Assembly (NCBI RefSeq): GCF_003113495.2
Contig: NZ_CP084506.1
Location: 248,001-312,000 of the forward strand
Source of the DNA: Edwardsiella tarda ATCC 15947 = NBRC 105688
GTDB lineage: Bacteria; Pseudomonadota; Gammaproteobacteria; Enterobacterales; Enterobacteriaceae
Reading direction: 5' to 3'
Length of the DNA: 64,000 nt
Of the stretch, positions 6,833-44,222 are shown in pieces. Both the position numbers and the translations under genes were made by a program. Every line of letters begins with the position of its first letter. Position 1 is the first letter of the stretch. The notes under the pieces were generated by a model that had not been told where the DNA came from, did not search any database, and saw nothing but the letters and a program-made list of their open reading frames with translations.

Positions 6833-7273
6833 CTAGGGGGTCGTTGTTGATGCGAGGGGCTCGTCCTTCTCGGTGGGGCGACCCGAGGTGATCCAGCCGA
6901 AGATGCCATCGGCCATATGAAAGACATGAGGGTAGCCGAGCGCCATGGTCATCTTGGCGGCATCATGGCTGGCGAGGCAGAGTTGATTTGCGCAGTAGAA
7001 GATCAAGGTTGCTTGCCGGTCGTGAGGCAGTAGGCTCTGCCAGTTCTCTTGGTTAATGTAGATCGCGCCGGGAATGCGGCCCTGATGCCAGATCTCGGGC
7101 GTGTTCACGTCCAGAAAGTAGACATTCGGCTGGCCGAGTAACGATTCGGCTGCTCGCATACTGATGGGTGTTGGCTCCTGCTCTTGTTGCGTGTGTATGG
7201 GGGCGGCAAAGATGGCGGTAGGTGAGAATAGGCTGAGCGTCAGACACAGGCCGAATAGCGGGTAACGCAACAT
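6833..7273 (-). CDS. Periplasmic rhodanese-domain protein, last gene of the sulfite reductase operon
   Basis: 146 residues with a clear Sec signal peptide (1-23, cleavage after IFA). A single rhodanese fold follows (about 35-135): VYFLDVNTPEIWHQGRIPGA is the CH2A-type region, and the active-site loop carries C94 in FYCANQLC, with a second cysteine, C99, nearby. Single-domain rhodaneses transfer sulfane sulfur, for instance splitting thiosulfate and releasing sulfite. It has a good ribosome-binding site (AAGGAG) and follows the octaheme cytochrome gene by 89 bases on the same strand. I infer it is co-transcribed and handles sulfane sulfur in the periplasm. Its substrate cannot be told from sequence, and the loop is not the common CxxGxR form. 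Confidence 0.8.
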   Translation of the reverse strand: MLRYPLFGLCLTLSLFSPTAIFAAPIHTQQEQEPTPISMRAAESLLGQPNVYFLDVNTPEIWHQGRIPGAIYINQENWQSLLPHDRQATLIFYCANQLCLASHDAAKMTMALGYPHVFHMADGIFGWITSGRPTEKDEPLASTTTP

Positions 7274-7362
7274 AATGAACTCCTTGTGAGTGTAAGCGAG
7301 TGGGGAAGCTGGTGGGGGGAATAACGGTGGGTATCAGAGACACCCACCGTATGAAGCCGCGC

Positions 7363-9384
7363 TTAGTGCGCTTTACCGTTTAGGATCGCTTCAGCTTGAT
7401 CGATGTACAGTTGGCCTTCCTCCATGCGAGCCTTAGCATAATGCGGCGCATGCAGGCCCCATGAACCGTCCCGCTCGATCAGCTCCGCCTGTTGGCGGGC
7501 ATGGTTGCTGAGCAAGCGGACTTGTACCTTGTCGCTTTGTGACAGGCTAGTGGCCTTGTTCAGACGTTTCTCGATACGCTCCAATCCGCTGTGGATGCGG
7601 GTATAGCCATCTTTGACCGGCGTTTGCCACTCCATTACCTTGGCATAGATGCTTTCTTGATCCTTAAATTGCAGGCGCTCGGAGAGTACGGTTTGTACCG
7701 GGCTATGGCAGCCACCCCCTTCGATTACGTCGCCGTCACTAAAGGCGGTGCGCCCGCAAGACCACATCAGATCCAGGTAGGGCTTACCATCCTGACGGGC
7801 GATACTCCATCCCTTGATGTTAGAGGTCCGAGGTTGTCCTTCAGGGGGATTGAGAGTCTTAGCCTTCTCGTCAACCCGGATCTTCCAGATATGCGCGCGG
7901 CGTACGTTGTCGAATCCGGCATGATCGGGAAACTGGATGGTGGCGAAGTTTTCACAGCTACCCATGTTCGGCATGTGGCAGGCGGTACACTGGTTTTGCC
8001 CATGAGTATCTCCCTGGGCAAAGAAGCTCGCCTGAGCGGCGTGGCAGTGCTGACACTGCATCTTGATGGTGCTCTTGGTCGTCCCCTCTTTCCAATCGTT
8101 AGCCGTCACCGCGTGCGGATCGTGGCAGGTATTACAGCGCATGCCATCTTGGTAGTGTGCGGTGTAGTACATCTGTGAGCCTTCGGTACCACAGGCGGGG
8201 CAAGATGACTTGAAGTAAGAGTTGAATGGCCGCTGCGGATCGGCCGCGTCATTAGCGGAGTTATAGGTGAAGCGTTGGTGGCAACGCTCGCAGTTGGAGG
8301 GCATCCCAGCCCCTCGCGCACCGTACAGATGGGCTCCCGCGCCGTGACACTCTTCGCAGGTGATTCCTTTGGCGATGGTATGCTTACGGAGTTCTTCAGG
8401 CTTACCGAGTGCGGCCAGAAACTCCTGGGAGCTCTTGAAGTCGAACTTCATGGTATGGCATACCTCGCAGTAGGCGCTGGCCGGTTGGAACATCATATTG
8501 GTCCGGTTAGCGGCACCGTAAGAGGTCATGCCCCAGACGCTAGAGCCTTGTGCGCCAAAGTCCTCCAGTTTGGTAGGAAAGCCGGGAACAAAGCTGGCGA
8601 TCTTCTTCGCCACGTCTGGCGTGATAAACTGCGCCCAGCCACGAGAGAATTGGTTGCCGCCGGCCACCATGGTACCGGTGCCGTCTTTAAGCAACCCACC
8701 CTCAATATGGTAAGTACCACGAACCATCCAGGCATCGATGAAGCCATATTTGGTCCGGGGTGTGCCGATGATGGCATAGATGGCATCCGGTGTAACCCCT
8801 TGCGGTAGCACAGAGGCTTTGCTGCCATACAGTCCACGATTCAGATCCTTGCCCGGTATCTCCTCCATCTCATCAGGGAAGCGCACGACTTTAGCGTGAC
8901 GGGAACGCTCCCAGGCCTGGTATTGCGCCGGGTGGCATTCCGCACACTTCTGTGGGCCGACATATTTGTTCGGAAAATCGAGAATGGATTCGACGCCTAA
9001 GCGATAGGTTACCGCCGTCGGGCGGCCATGTTTTTCGGCATACTTATCACCGCCGCCAAACTCGACAAACTCCTCCTCACGATTGCTGATGGTGTATTTA
9101 CCGACCAAGCGTCCGGCGGCTTCGTACTTAAATAATGGATGATGTTCGCGTAGATAGCTGAAGAGGTCTTTCTCCTGTTCGACATACCCCATCAGCGTAC
9201 GCGGTGTATCGGGAATACCGTCGTTGCGGTTAACGTCGATCTTCGTTGCCGAGGTGCTAGATTGGCTCGTTGCCGCTGGCGCAGATTCATTGGGTGGGGA
9301 CTGAGACACCAGCCCCGATGCGGCCATGAGTGGCATTGCGAACAGCCATAAGGCAAAACTGGTTAAGCGGGTAGGTATTTTCAT
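7363..9384 (-). CDS. mccA: Octaheme c-type cytochrome, MccA/SirA-type dissimilatory sulfite reductase
   Basis: 673 residues from the ATG that sits six bases after AAGGAG; a TTG two codons earlier abuts that site and is less likely. The signal peptide is about residues 1-22. Seven CxxCH haem sites are at residues 147, 306, 343, 365, 417, 444 and 466. An eighth site has C543 and C559-H560 separated by 15 residues (CX15CH). That unusual motif marks the MccA (Wolinella) and SirA (Shewanella) sulfite reductases, which reduce sulfite to sulfide in the periplasm at a haem-copper site. Non-haem cysteines C395/C398 (SSCPACG) and C477 (MGSCENF) are candidates for the copper ligands. The gene lies between a membrane cytochrome b gene upstream and a rhodanese gene downstream. 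The alternative, an octaheme tetrathionate reductase, fits the CX15CH site poorly. Activity is inferred. Confidence 0.85.
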   Translation of the reverse strand: MKIPTRLTSFALWLFAMPLMAASGLVSQSPPNESAPAATSQSSTSATKIDVNRNDGIPDTPRTLMGYVEQEKDLFSYLREHHPLFKYEAAGRLVGKYTISNREEEFVEFGGGDKYAEKHGRPTAVTYRLGVESILDFPNKYVGPQKCAECHPAQYQAWERSRHAKVVRFPDEMEEIPGKDLNRGLYGSKASVLPQGVTPDAIYAIIGTPRTKYGFIDAWMVRGTYHIEGGLLKDGTGTMVAGGNQFSRGWAQFITPDVAKKIASFVPGFPTKLEDFGAQGSSVWGMTSYGAANRTNMMFQPASAYCEVCHTMKFDFKSSQEFLAALGKPEELRKHTIAKGITCEECHGAGAHLYGARGAGMPSNCERCHQRFTYNSANDAADPQRPFNSYFKSSCPACGTEGSQMYYTAHYQDGMRCNTCHDPHAVTANDWKEGTTKSTIKMQCQHCHAAQASFFAQGDTHGQNQCTACHMPNMGSCENFATIQFPDHAGFDNVRRAHIWKIRVDEKAKTLNPPEGQPRTSNIKGWSIARQDGKPYLDLMWSCGRTAFSDGDVIEGGGCHSPVQTVLSERLQFKDQESIYAKVMEWQTPVKDGYTRIHSGLERIEKRLNKATSLSQSDKVQVRLLSNHARQQAELIERDGSWGLHAPHYAKARMEEGQLYIDQAEAILNGKAH

Positions 9385-9472
9385 CGTCAACTCCTTGACC
9401 CAGTAAATAGCGGCGTAGTGTTAGGGTGTTATGACACTGGCCTATTTTTAATATTTATATCTTTGTTGTTAT

Positions 9473-10261
9473 TTATTCGTTTTCTACGGTATGGACGCGG
9501 TGGCGATGATAACCATCGAGCATGGCCATAAAGGTTTCCCCCCACGTCTCACCGAGGGTGCATAAATAAATATGTGCACTAATAAACATCAAGCTAAATA
9601 ATGATAGTAATAAATGCCCTTGGAGTATCCAGTAGGCGGCGCCGAGTGGAAGCCACTGAGGATTGGTCAGACAGAGGCCGCTAAGAAATAATAGCGGTAC
9701 CATACCGAACATGACCGAGCAATAACCCAGTTGCTGCAATGGATTAAACTTTTGTGTCCGCGTCGCTACGAAGGGATGAGGCTCGGCGTGGAAGATCCCG
9801 ATGAGATAAAAGCGAGCCTGACGCATGCAGCGTGCCGCTAATCCCGACCAGGCGACACGATAATGTCGGCCATTGGGGCCGAAGAGGTTCAGGGCGAGAA
9901 ATCCGCACCATAGTATTAACAGCAGATAGCCAGCGTAGGGATGCGCCTGAACCAACCAATGGGTGGCGGCCACAGGCAGCAGTGCAAAGTGGGTGAGCAG
10001 GCCGCTGATAAGTAAGAAGAGAAAGAGTAGCGCATTCACCCCATGCCACAGGCGCAGATAGAGAGGATAGAGATAGAGGCGCTCTTGTGTGCCGTGCGCG
10101 GCGGGGGCGGGATAGCGCCGCCGTAGTAGGGCGTGCAGTAGCAACAGGGCGCAGAGCCCTAACCATGCGACCGTTAGGGCGATCAGCCAGATTGGCCAGA
10201 AATCCGCCGGGTGGGCGGGGAGCTGCTGGGCCAGATAGGCGTGCAGTTGTGCGGCGTTCAT
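9473..10261 (-). CDS. Membrane cytochrome b subunit (PhsC/FdnI/HyaC-like quinol dehydrogenase)
   Basis: 262 residues with about five hydrophobic helices: 23-46, 72-92, 108-128, 177-199 and 211-236. Candidate haem b ligands lie in or beside helices: H73 (LRLWHGVNALL), H107 (QAHPYAG), H216 (LQGHLLLS) and H230 (ISAHIYLC). The segment FNPLQQLGYCSVMFG, the final GETWGETFMAM and the spacing match the cytochrome b family of thiosulfate reductase PhsC, formate dehydrogenase FdnI and NiFe-hydrogenase HyaC. It would oxidise menaquinol and pass electrons to the ferredoxin-like partner. Characterised mcc/sir clusters use an NrfD-type protein here, so this is a different membrane module. It starts 9 bases after the FeS gene, with TAGGAG upstream. 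Confidence 0.8.
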   Translation of the reverse strand: MNAAQLHAYLAQQLPAHPADFWPIWLIALTVAWLGLCALLLLHALLRRRYPAPAAHGTQERLYLYPLYLRLWHGVNALLFLFLLISGLLTHFALLPVAATHWLVQAHPYAGYLLLILWCGFLALNLFGPNGRHYRVAWSGLAARCMRQARFYLIGIFHAEPHPFVATRTQKFNPLQQLGYCSVMFGMVPLLFLSGLCLTNPQWLPLGAAYWILQGHLLLSLFSLMFISAHIYLCTLGETWGETFMAMLDGYHRHRVHTVENE

Positions 10262-10270
10262 GCTTGGCTC

Positions 10271-10909
10271 CTAGTCATCGGCGAGAATACGGTAGATCCG
10301 GCTGTGACGTGTGCCAGCCAGGTGATACTGGTAATAGGGCGCCAGAGCCAGTTTGAGCTCGAATGACGGCGTGTCCAACTCGCCAAAGCTGAGTGCATGA
10401 TAGGGGCAGATACGCACACAGATGGGGACTTGCCCATGGCTTAAGCGTGTGGCGCTACAGAAGTCACACTTGTCGGCAATATGGCGGGTTGGGTGCAGAT
10501 AGCGAGCCTGGTAAGGGCAGGCACTGATGCAGTAACCACAGCCGAGGCAACGCTGGGCGTCGATCTGAATCAGTCCATGCTGGTCGCGGTAGGTTGCCCC
10601 GCTGGGACAAACGTCGAGGCAAGGCGCGGGATCGCAGTGCTGGCAGCTATGGCGAAAATAGCGTGGTTTGTCCTCGGATTGGGACGTGGTACTGGGTAAT
10701 GGAATGATCGCCAAGCGAGCACAGCCGGGAGCAACCTGGTTGATTTGATTACAGGCGTTGACACACTCCTTGCAGCCGACACATTTAGATTGGTCGTGGA
10801 TCAATGCGTACTGTTTTCCCCTCCGGGTCGGCGCGGATAATAATATCCCCGGCGCCAGTACGATAAATCCGGCTCCAATGATAATATTGCGGCGTGAATA
10901 ATGCTTCAT
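10271..10909 (-). CDS. Tat-exported 4x[4Fe-4S] ferredoxin-like subunit (NrfC/SirC/DsrO type)
   Basis: 212 residues. The N-terminus has a twin-arginine signal, SRRNIIIGAGF (5-15), followed by a hydrophobic stretch ending near SAP (25-27). Sixteen cysteines form four ferredoxin clusters: 43/46/49/53, 89/92/97/101, 121/124/127/131 and 148/151/164/168. This is the layout of NrfC, DmsB, PhsB and SirC electron-transfer subunits. It is the first gene of the operon and is inferred to relay electrons in the periplasm from the cytochrome b subunit to the octaheme reductase. A GGGA sequence precedes the ATG. Confidence in the family is high; the partner assignment rests on gene order. Confidence 0.88.
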   Translation of the reverse strand: MKHYSRRNIIIGAGFIVLAPGILLSAPTRRGKQYALIHDQSKCVGCKECVNACNQINQVAPGCARLAIIPLPSTTSQSEDKPRYFRHSCQHCDPAPCLDVCPSGATYRDQHGLIQIDAQRCLGCGYCISACPYQARYLHPTRHIADKCDFCSATRLSHGQVPICVRICPYHALSFGELDTPSFELKLALAPYYQYHLAGTRHSRIYRILADD

Positions 10910-11105
10910 AGATTATCCCATGAAATATATTTCGTGCTTGTTTTTATTCTATTGCGCTGAATATTTTCTGACGGACGATGAGGATTCTATTTCTGCGTGC
11001 CGGATGGAAAAGAGAGAGGGATCAAAAAATGATAACTCCCTAAAAATGGGTAGGCTTAAATAGTGGTGAATTATTATTTAAATAAATACAAATTTATTAA
11101 TGGAT
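10910..11105 (-). promoter_or_regulatory. AT-rich presumed promoter region of the sulfite reductase operon
   Basis: 196 bases between the hslO terminator and the first gene of the operon, clearly AT-richer than the surrounding coding DNA. No full FNR palindrome or Crp site was found; one TTGAT half-site is seen on the minus strand near 11025. The promoter must lie here if the four genes form one unit, but no convincing -35/-10 pair could be fixed. Confidence 0.4.
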
Positions 11106-11128
11106 AAAAATGGGAGGCAGCGCCTCCC
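11106..11128 (-). terminator. Rho-independent terminator of hslO
   Basis: Arms GGGAGGC and GCCTCCC with a 3-base loop (11112-11128), followed on the minus strand by ATTTTTAT. It sits 12 bases after the hslO stop and separates hslO transcription from the sulfite reductase operon. Confidence 0.85.
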
Positions 11129-11140
11129 GGAAAATAGGGA

Positions 11141-43270: not shown

Positions 43271-43394
43271 ATTTACATTGTTTGCTCGCTTTGCGATTGT
43301 TTTCTGGTAAGCGTGGCGACTATAGTAACTCAGGACATATCCCTAACTGTGCTCATCGTGATTTAAGGCAAGTGCCTTAATTTTGGAGAAATGG

Positions 43395-44222
43395 ATGAAA
43401 TCTTTTTTTAAAGTTACCGCGCTAGCCACGACGATGGCTCTGGCGCTGAATGCCTCGGCATTTGCAGCGGACGCAGCCAAGGCTGATACGGCCGCTCCGG
43501 CTGCCGCAGCCAGCAGCAAGTTCAAAAATGACGATCAGCAGGCGGCCTATGCACTGGGGGCTTCTCTGGGGCGTTATATGGATAACTCTCTGAAGGAGCA
43601 GGAGAAGCTGGGGATTAAACTGGATAAAGATCAGTTGATTGCCGGTGTTCAAGACGCTTTCGCAGGCAAGAGCAAGCTGAGCGATCAAGAGATCGAGCAG
43701 ACGTTGCAGTCGTTCGAGAACCGCGTGAAGAGCACTGCACAGGCGAAGATGGAGCAGGAAGCAAAAGAAAATGCTGAAGCGGGTCAGAAGTTCCGTACCG
43801 CTTTTGCTAAAGAGAAGGGCGTGAAGACCACGGCCAGCGGGTTGATGTATCTGGTCGAGAAAGAAGGCTCAGGCCCGACACCGACGGATAGCGACACCGT
43901 GGTGGTGAACTATAAGGGTTCGCTGATCAATGGTACCGAGTTCGATAACTCCTACACGCGCGGCGAGCCGCTCTCCTTCCGTCTGGATGGGGTGATCCCG
44001 GGGTGGACTGAAGGCCTGAAGCACATCAAGAAAGGCGGCAAGATCAAGCTGGTTATCCCACCGGATCTGGCTTACGGCAAGACCGGTGTCCCGGGGATCC
44101 CGGCTAACTCTACGCTGGTGTTCCAAGTCGAACTGCTGGACGTGAAGCCGGCAGCAAAGGCTGATGCTGCACCGAGCGCAGCGGAGAAAGCCGCTACCGG
44201 TAACGAAAAAAGCGCGAAATAA
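43395..44222 (+). CDS. fkpA: Periplasmic FKBP-type prolyl isomerase and chaperone FkpA
   Basis: 275 residues from the ATG of MKSFFKVTALATTMALALN (signal 1-24, cleavage after AFA). The N-terminal dimerisation/chaperone domain (about 40-135, helical) is followed by an FKBP domain (about 140-245: TVVVNYKGSLINGTEFDNSY, RLDGVIPGWTEGL). An Ala/Lys-rich tail ends the protein. It folds envelope proteins and is induced by envelope stress. Confidence 0.97.
   Translation: MKSFFKVTALATTMALALNASAFAADAAKADTAAPAAAASSKFKNDDQQAAYALGASLGRYMDNSLKEQEKLGIKLDKDQLIAGVQDAFAGKSKLSDQEIEQTLQSFENRVKSTAQAKMEQEAKENAEAGQKFRTAFAKEKGVKTTASGLMYLVEKEGSGPTPTDSDTVVVNYKGSLINGTEFDNSYTRGEPLSFRLDGVIPGWTEGLKHIKKGGKIKLVIPPDLAYGKTGVPGIPANSTLVFQVELLDVKPAAKADAAPSAAEKAATGNEKSAK

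Follow-up and report, generated by a model that had tools for sequence, protein, structure and literature searches.

Gene content of the locus

The window analysed here is a 64,000-nucleotide stretch of Edwardsiella tarda ATCC 15947 (contig NZ_CP084506.1, positions 248,001 to 312,000), in which a minus-strand operon at window positions 6833-10909 encodes an octaheme cytochrome c of the MccA family together with its putative electron-transfer partners. Its four genes, in the order FES, CYTB, MCCA and RHOD, are all intact and separated by 9, 88 and 89 bases, a spacing in keeping with an operon. FES (10271..10909) encodes a 212-amino-acid (aa) ferredoxin with motifs for four [4Fe-4S] clusters and with an SRR signal resembling those for twin-arginine translocation (Tat), an electron carrier like NrfC or PhsB. 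CYTB (9473..10261; 262 aa) is a membrane cytochrome b561 of the PhsC type and likely the menaquinol-oxidising subunit. MCCA (7363..9384; 673 aa) is the predicted sulfite reductase, assigned by phmmer, motifs and a phylogenetic tree, and RHOD (6833..7273; 146 aa) is a single-domain rhodanese (PF00581) with a signal-like N-terminus. The start of MCCA is taken as the ATG at 9384, while a 675-aa frame begins at an upstream TTG. The original prediction, which had named a ferredoxin, a cytochrome b, an octaheme cytochrome and a rhodanese on one strand, was confirmed, and its coordinates, strand and heme motifs proved correct on recheck.

The octaheme cytochrome

MCCA carries seven CxxCH motifs (at residues 147, 306, 343, 365, 417, 444 and 466 of the 673-aa form) and one CX15CH motif (543-560), so that 16 of its 19 cysteines belong to heme sites, the other three being Cys395, Cys398 and Cys477. 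When the MCCA residues were shuffled, CxxCH arose at a mean of 0.0175 per sequence (maximum 2; 2000 shuffles) and CX15CH at a mean of 0.0165 per sequence (another 2000 shuffles); since such motifs almost never appear in shuffles, the heme-motif set is not due to chance. In a phmmer search against all PDB chain sequences, the sole match at E <= 0.001 was Wolinella MccA (4rkm/4rkn; E 2.2e-195), with an alignment spanning residues 65-671 as numbered in the 675-aa frame, and no octaheme tetrathionate reductase or hydroxylamine enzyme was matched at that threshold. The earlier assignment to the MccA/SirA family was thereby borne out. The atypical C...CH heme site was present in all 21 aligned sequences, with an inter-cysteine spacing of 15 in 15 of them, 17 in five and 19 in one. 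Cys398 and Cys477 were likewise kept in 21 of 21 (the query included) and Cys395 in 20. By eye count, Cys398 and Cys477 align with positions 411 and 507 in the chain sequence of 4rkm, which we take to be the published copper ligands Cys399 and Cys495 of MccA, assuming a numbering offset of 12; the two residues of MCCA thus appear to fit the copper ligands of MccA.

A structure prediction for MCCA from 21 sequences reached a mean predicted local distance difference test (pLDDT) of 56. Foldseek returned only five matches with this model at E <= 0.001, all of them MccA chains, and matches to NrfA were weak (E >= 0.06). In this comparison, of the kind suggested with the original prediction, MccA chains were the sole significant matches, but the model was poor and its fit only local. 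Judged by homology and motifs, the octaheme protein is a member of the MccA/SirA family, with sulfite reduction as its predicted activity.

The putative electron-donor module

FES has 17 cysteines, 16 of which fall into four ferredoxin-type groups (43-53, 89-101, 121-131 and 148-168, grouped by eye), and its N-terminal SRR motif is Tat-like by eye. It scored 203.5 bits against the NCBIfam NrfC model, under the cut-off of 377.6, matched Pfam Fer4_11, and is 45% identical to NrfC and 40% identical to PhsB of its own genome. CYTB scored 347.7 bits against NCBIfam PRK15006 (thiosulfate reductase cytochrome B, the PhsC equivalog; cut-off 204), matched PF01292 and shares 49% identity with the PhsC of its own genome. 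When the PhsC family was surveyed in 148 sampled genomes, an over-cut-off match was found solely in the genome of the window.

For comparison across taxa, a contig scan yielded 156 relatives, the best 80 of which were kept and correspond to 77 loci; together with the window they make 78 loci, whose open reading frames were clustered. Counts over these loci are lower bounds, because the choice of reading frames dropped MccA itself in three of the 78 and some stretches end at contig ends. CYTB was found in seven of them, namely the window, four other Edwardsiella, Budvicia and Leminorella. A gene of the NrfD type was found in 34, and none in the Edwardsiella operon. The genome of the window contains two matches to the NrfD family (PF03916), one being NrfD of the nrf operon and the other a weak, TtrC-like one beside a TtrB-like gene. 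The cluster is a minimal variant of the MccA system with a PhsC-type cytochrome b, that is, a known enzyme in a new cluster variant. The operon had been described as complete, which is misleading if the studied Wolinella and Shewanella systems are the measure: an NrfD-type subunit and a dedicated heme lyase are absent from it, as are the FKBP, NosD, NosL and ABC-transporter genes that most of the 34 Shewanella loci hold.

The rhodanese and its fused relatives

RHOD matched PF00581 with 47.3 bits and shows, in the aligned rows, the active-site loop FYCxNxxCxxS. Its family is present in 52 of the 78 loci and directly follows 54 of the 79 MccA genes of the locus set. In 15 Campylobacterota/Mucispirillum loci (L013, L017, L022, L025, L029, L030, L032, L033, L035, L036, L038, L039, L042, L050 and L082), MccA is followed by one protein of 672-731 aa that has six CxxCH motifs and matches RHOD. 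The member from L013, the only one scanned against Pfam, combined rhodanese, multiheme and cytochrome-b561 domains (the last with 30.8 bits against a cut-off of 30.1). From its sequence this fused protein is an apparent one-chain electron donor. It offers the best independent sign that the rhodanese and the cytochrome b belong with the MccA chain.

Attachment of the CX15CH heme

The CX15CH heme requires SirEFG in Shewanella and CcsA1 in Wolinella, according to PMC6976685. A whole-genome lyase survey covering 10 mccA-carrying genomes found four PF01578 proteins in the genome of the window: CcmF, CcmC, NrfE and a 262-aa CcsA-like protein. Judged by eye, the operon of CcmF resembles ccmABCDEFGH and that of NrfE resembles nrfABCDEFG, the CcmF/NrfE class and NrfA being supported by NCBIfam too, and the CcsA-like protein adjoins a CorC-like gene. 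NrfE already has a client of its own in the neighbouring NrfA, which scores above two curated cut-offs and carries a CWSCK site. The four other Edwardsiella genomes each encode four PF01578 proteins of the same sizes, and a dedicated CX15CH heme lyase (SirE, CcsA1 or CcmF2) was absent from all five Edwardsiella genomes by the PF01578 survey. Because SirE, CcsA1 and a second CcmF are all missing, the CX15CH heme is left to the general CcmF complex or to NrfEFG, and the eighth heme in Edwardsiella, if attached, is most likely attached by CcmF or NrfE.

Budvicia and Leminorella encode five PF01578 proteins. The extra one, CcmF2, is 70-71% identical to Edwardsiella CcmF and sits next to a CcmI-like gene within the mcc cluster (L011:15232-18122 in Budvicia and L012:12853-15704 in Leminorella). 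In a tree of 36 lyases, CcmF2 was sister to the enterobacterial CcmF group and SirE fell with the Shewanella CcmF side, although the position of SirE is unsure because several of its branches are long. The approximately unbiased (AU) test did not reject a CcmF2 duplication inside Budviciaceae (p 0.09). That Edwardsiella CcmF might itself be the mcc-linked CcmF2 of Budviciaceae was rejected in a second tree (AU test, p 0.002), and its position in the ccm operon also fits that idea badly. A CcmF/SirE-like or CcsA1-like gene was found within the fetched stretch in 48 of the 78 loci. We lean slightly towards a two-part reading, in which Edwardsiella would attach the CX15CH heme via the ordinary CcmF-CcmH or the CXXCK lyase NrfEFG, breaking the dedicated-synthetase rule, and in which dedicated lyases would have several origins: that of Budviciaceae would derive from enterobacterial CcmF, while SirE would have arisen in Shewanella/Ferrimonas and a ResB-CcsA fusion in Campylobacterota.

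Distribution, phylogeny and conservation

A sample of 394 genomes from the order contained MccA in 14, spread over three of 115 genera (that of the window plus two from a single other family), and the matches included no Edwardsiella other than the window's genome. No blastn match at E <= 1e-5 occurred among 20,395 E. coli records. The rarity in enterobacteria stated with the original prediction thus held up. Carriage of the operon on plasmids was rejected, with no tblastn match among 72,556 plasmid records. For phylogeny we selected 35 MccA proteins from the 78 loci. In the resulting tree, Edwardsiella MccA groups with that of Budvicia and Leminorella (support 97/96), within a half that further comprises Acidobacteriota, Geobacteraceae, Campylobacterota and some Sutterella. 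Shewanella SirA and three of the four Ferrimonas rows are split from it with support of 100/100. The MccA of a record labelled Marinobacter nauticus (L052) is nearly identical to that of Ferrimonas balearica (L049; end branches 0.014 and 0.005), and this likeness may reflect either recent transfer or a mislabelled assembly.

The nearest other Edwardsiella is E. hoshinae, whose MccA is 90% identical. Against three other Edwardsiella, the ratio of non-synonymous to synonymous substitution rates (dN/dS) was 0.05-0.18 across the four genes and lowest for MccA (0.05-0.07), where dS was 0.6-0.9 for E. hoshinae and 1.4-2.2, near saturation, for the other two. Purifying selection acts on all four operon genes. 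The G+C content of the operon (55.5%) is close to that of the window (56.0%) and hence gives no sign of recent transfer.

Other sulfur-oxyanion reductases of the genome

The genome of the window also encodes asrABC, phsABC and a ttrBC-like pair, in the stretches C1:1806000-1816000 (L165), C1:1904000-1915000 (L164) and L182. For asr, TIGR02912 scored 476.7 bits (cut-off 324.1) and all three asrABC genes were found; the PhsC of the genome scored 388.6 bits, and phsB and a PhsA-like gene (named by eye) were also found, elsewhere in the genome. The contrast drawn earlier with Salmonella, as the bacterium using asrABC, was therefore not upheld, because Edwardsiella holds asrABC too. Sulfite formed by PhsABC is expected to appear in the periplasm, where MccA could encounter it; the site of AsrABC action would be the cytoplasm. 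Since the genome contains both systems, sulfite may be made by Phs and reduced by MccA in the periplasm, and we put forward such Phs-MccA coupling via periplasmic sulfite as a hypothesis. AsrA and CcmG are listed among E. tarda fitness genes in PMC12911395.

Upstream and flanking regions

The operon is flanked by an hslO-like gene on one side and by pckA-, envZ- and ompR-like genes on the other (named by eye), and from the hslO-like to the pckA-like gene the window and all four other Edwardsiella loci share one gene order. A putative promoter region (10910..11140, minus strand) contains TTGATC 36 bases before a TAGAAT box resembling a -10 element, a weak candidate picked by eye but common to five aligned Edwardsiella upstream regions. 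This is the spacing that an activator site such as one for FNR would be expected to have, but the second half-site is poor. The best FNR-type match upstream of FES in the window has three mismatches of 10, and matches elsewhere in the region have two in three species. In Budvicia and Leminorella, an FNR-type match with one mismatch lies roughly 310-340 bases upstream of FES. These candidate regulatory sites, ranked by mismatch counts, are only a lead. A promoter scan gave four promoter-like sites against 4.7 in shuffles, and so no excess.

Proposed mechanism and alternative explanations

From the protein families and the gene order, we infer an electron route in which quinol would be oxidised by the PhsC-type CYTB and FES, the ferredoxin with four clusters, would relay the electrons to the octaheme MCCA. 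FES and CYTB would thus form a quinol module of the thiosulfate-reductase type feeding a cytochrome and not a molybdenum enzyme. The six-electron reduction of sulfite to sulfide would then take place at the CX15CH heme of MCCA, with Cys398 and Cys477 presumably holding copper, so that the route would end in the periplasm. RHOD probably handles a sulfane-sulfur product or frees sulfite from thiosulfate, and attachment of the CX15CH heme would fall to the general CcmF complex or to NrfEFG. Taken together, we consider it quite probable that these four genes specify a minimal, enterobacterial kind of periplasmic quinol:sulfite oxidoreductase that works in this way.

Several observations weigh against this interpretation. 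The fit of the MCCA model to MccA is a local match (TM-score 0.42, root-mean-square deviation about 21), and with a model this poor the structural match counts as weak support only. A second fused Campylobacterota-type protein matched only a decaheme cytochrome model in NCBIfam, and the rhodanese-loop pattern occurs in just three of the 15 fused proteins. The lack of an NrfD-type gene is not peculiar to enterics, as it is shared by eight of 34 Shewanella loci, one of them (L075) partial. NosL and NosD were absent from all seven enteric genomes searched (five Edwardsiella, Budvicia and Leminorella) and present in both Shewanella genomes searched; copper loading in enterics must therefore use something else. 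Finally, the Edwardsiella enzyme could be under-assembled, because Shewanella and Wolinella need a dedicated lyase (PMC6976685).

These last points favour the idea that the operon is decaying or poorly assembled, with the eighth heme or the copper missing and MCCA inactive, given that all five Edwardsiella genomes are without SirE, CcsA1, CcmF2, NosL and NosD and that Budvicia and Leminorella retain a mcc-linked CcmF2. We regard this as improbable: the genes and the heme and copper-type residues of MCCA are intact, purifying selection is strongest on MccA, and Budvicia and Leminorella do without NosL and NosD as well. Less probable still, and in our judgement very unlikely, is that MCCA is an octaheme enzyme of a different kind, be it a tetrathionate reductase, a hydroxylamine oxidoreductase or a nitrite reductase, for which sulfite is not the main substrate. 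The wider multiheme reductase group is promiscuous, an octaheme nitrite reductase also reducing sulfite (PMC8840924), but MccA alone was matched among PDB chains over nearly the whole protein, the atypical heme site, Cys398 and Cys477 are each invariant in the alignment, and NrfA was matched only weakly in structure.

A different possibility, tentative but with more in its favour than the two above, is that the respiratory substrate is thiosulfate or tetrathionate, with Ttr and Phs (or the rhodanese) making periplasmic sulfite and MccA finishing the reduction or detoxifying the product. It overlaps with quinol:sulfite oxidoreduction by the operon, and phsABC, the ttrBC-like pair, the PhsC-type CYTB and the rhodanese in the operon all agree with it; yet gene content cannot separate external from Phs-made sulfite, and asrABC could remove sulfite too.

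If quinol:sulfite oxidoreduction by this operon is correct, an enterobacterium of a genus that infects fish and people could turn sulfite into sulfide in the periplasm as well as through AsrABC in the cytoplasm, and part of the sulfide of Edwardsiella, a gut and fish bacterium, may thus be made in the periplasm. Two testable questions follow, namely whether attachment of a CX15CH heme is possible without a dedicated lyase and whether a PhsC-type cytochrome b can replace an NrfD-type subunit in supplying electrons to an octaheme reductase. Since its membrane partner differs and it has no special lyase such as the studied versions need, Edwardsiella constitutes a natural test of CX15CH heme attachment. 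In the papers searched we found none naming Edwardsiella and octaheme together and no title on this operon, although subscription reviews of sulfite respiration may mention Edwardsiella.

Comparison with known systems

Wolinella MccA/MccACD resembles the Edwardsiella system in its catalytic subunit, which is homologous over near full length and has seven CxxCH motifs and one CX15CH motif, and in its four-cluster ferredoxin partner. It differs in having an NrfD-type quinol subunit, MccD (PMC8076601), and the lyase CcsA1 (PMC6976685), whereas Edwardsiella has a cytochrome b of the PhsC type and lacks a dedicated lyase.

Shewanella oneidensis SirA/SirCD/SirEFG shares the homologous octaheme reductase and the ferredoxin, and a rhodanese gene of the same family occurs in all 34 Shewanella loci. 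Unlike Edwardsiella, these loci hold within the fetched stretch FKBP (34 loci), NosD (33), NosL (32), a SirE-like lyase (27) and an NrfD-type gene (26); the window contains a general FKBP isomerase gene at 43383-44222. The sir clusters of Shewanella and Ferrimonas (e.g. L041 and L059) include genes for NosL, NosD and ABC transporters that resemble those loading copper into nitrous-oxide reductase, an analogy which suggests that they may deliver copper to the SirA site. NosL of Shewanella sp. ANA-3 (G009:C1:578092-578452) lies in two pieces, one with an internal stop, and looks broken or mis-sequenced. Seven Shewanella sir clusters that are complete at that point (L031, L034, L040, L047, L048, L053 and L057) are without an NrfC- or NrfD-like gene, and SirA must therefore draw its electrons otherwise there. 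Tandem double sir clusters occur in several Shewanella/Ferrimonas genomes (L046, L049, L051, L054, L058, L059 and L066), and in L046, L051 and L066 the fetched stretch covers the first cluster only in part.

Budvicia aquatica (L011) and Leminorella grimontii (L012) encode the same four proteins as Edwardsiella, including the PhsC-type CYTB, but differ by having CcmF2 and the CcmI-like gene between mccA-rhodanese and FES-CYTB. In comparison with PhsABC, FES-CYTB corresponds to phsB-phsC in both order and family, whereas the Edwardsiella operon has MccA in place of a molybdenum subunit and a ferredoxin with its own Tat-like signal, the phsABC of the genome being located elsewhere.

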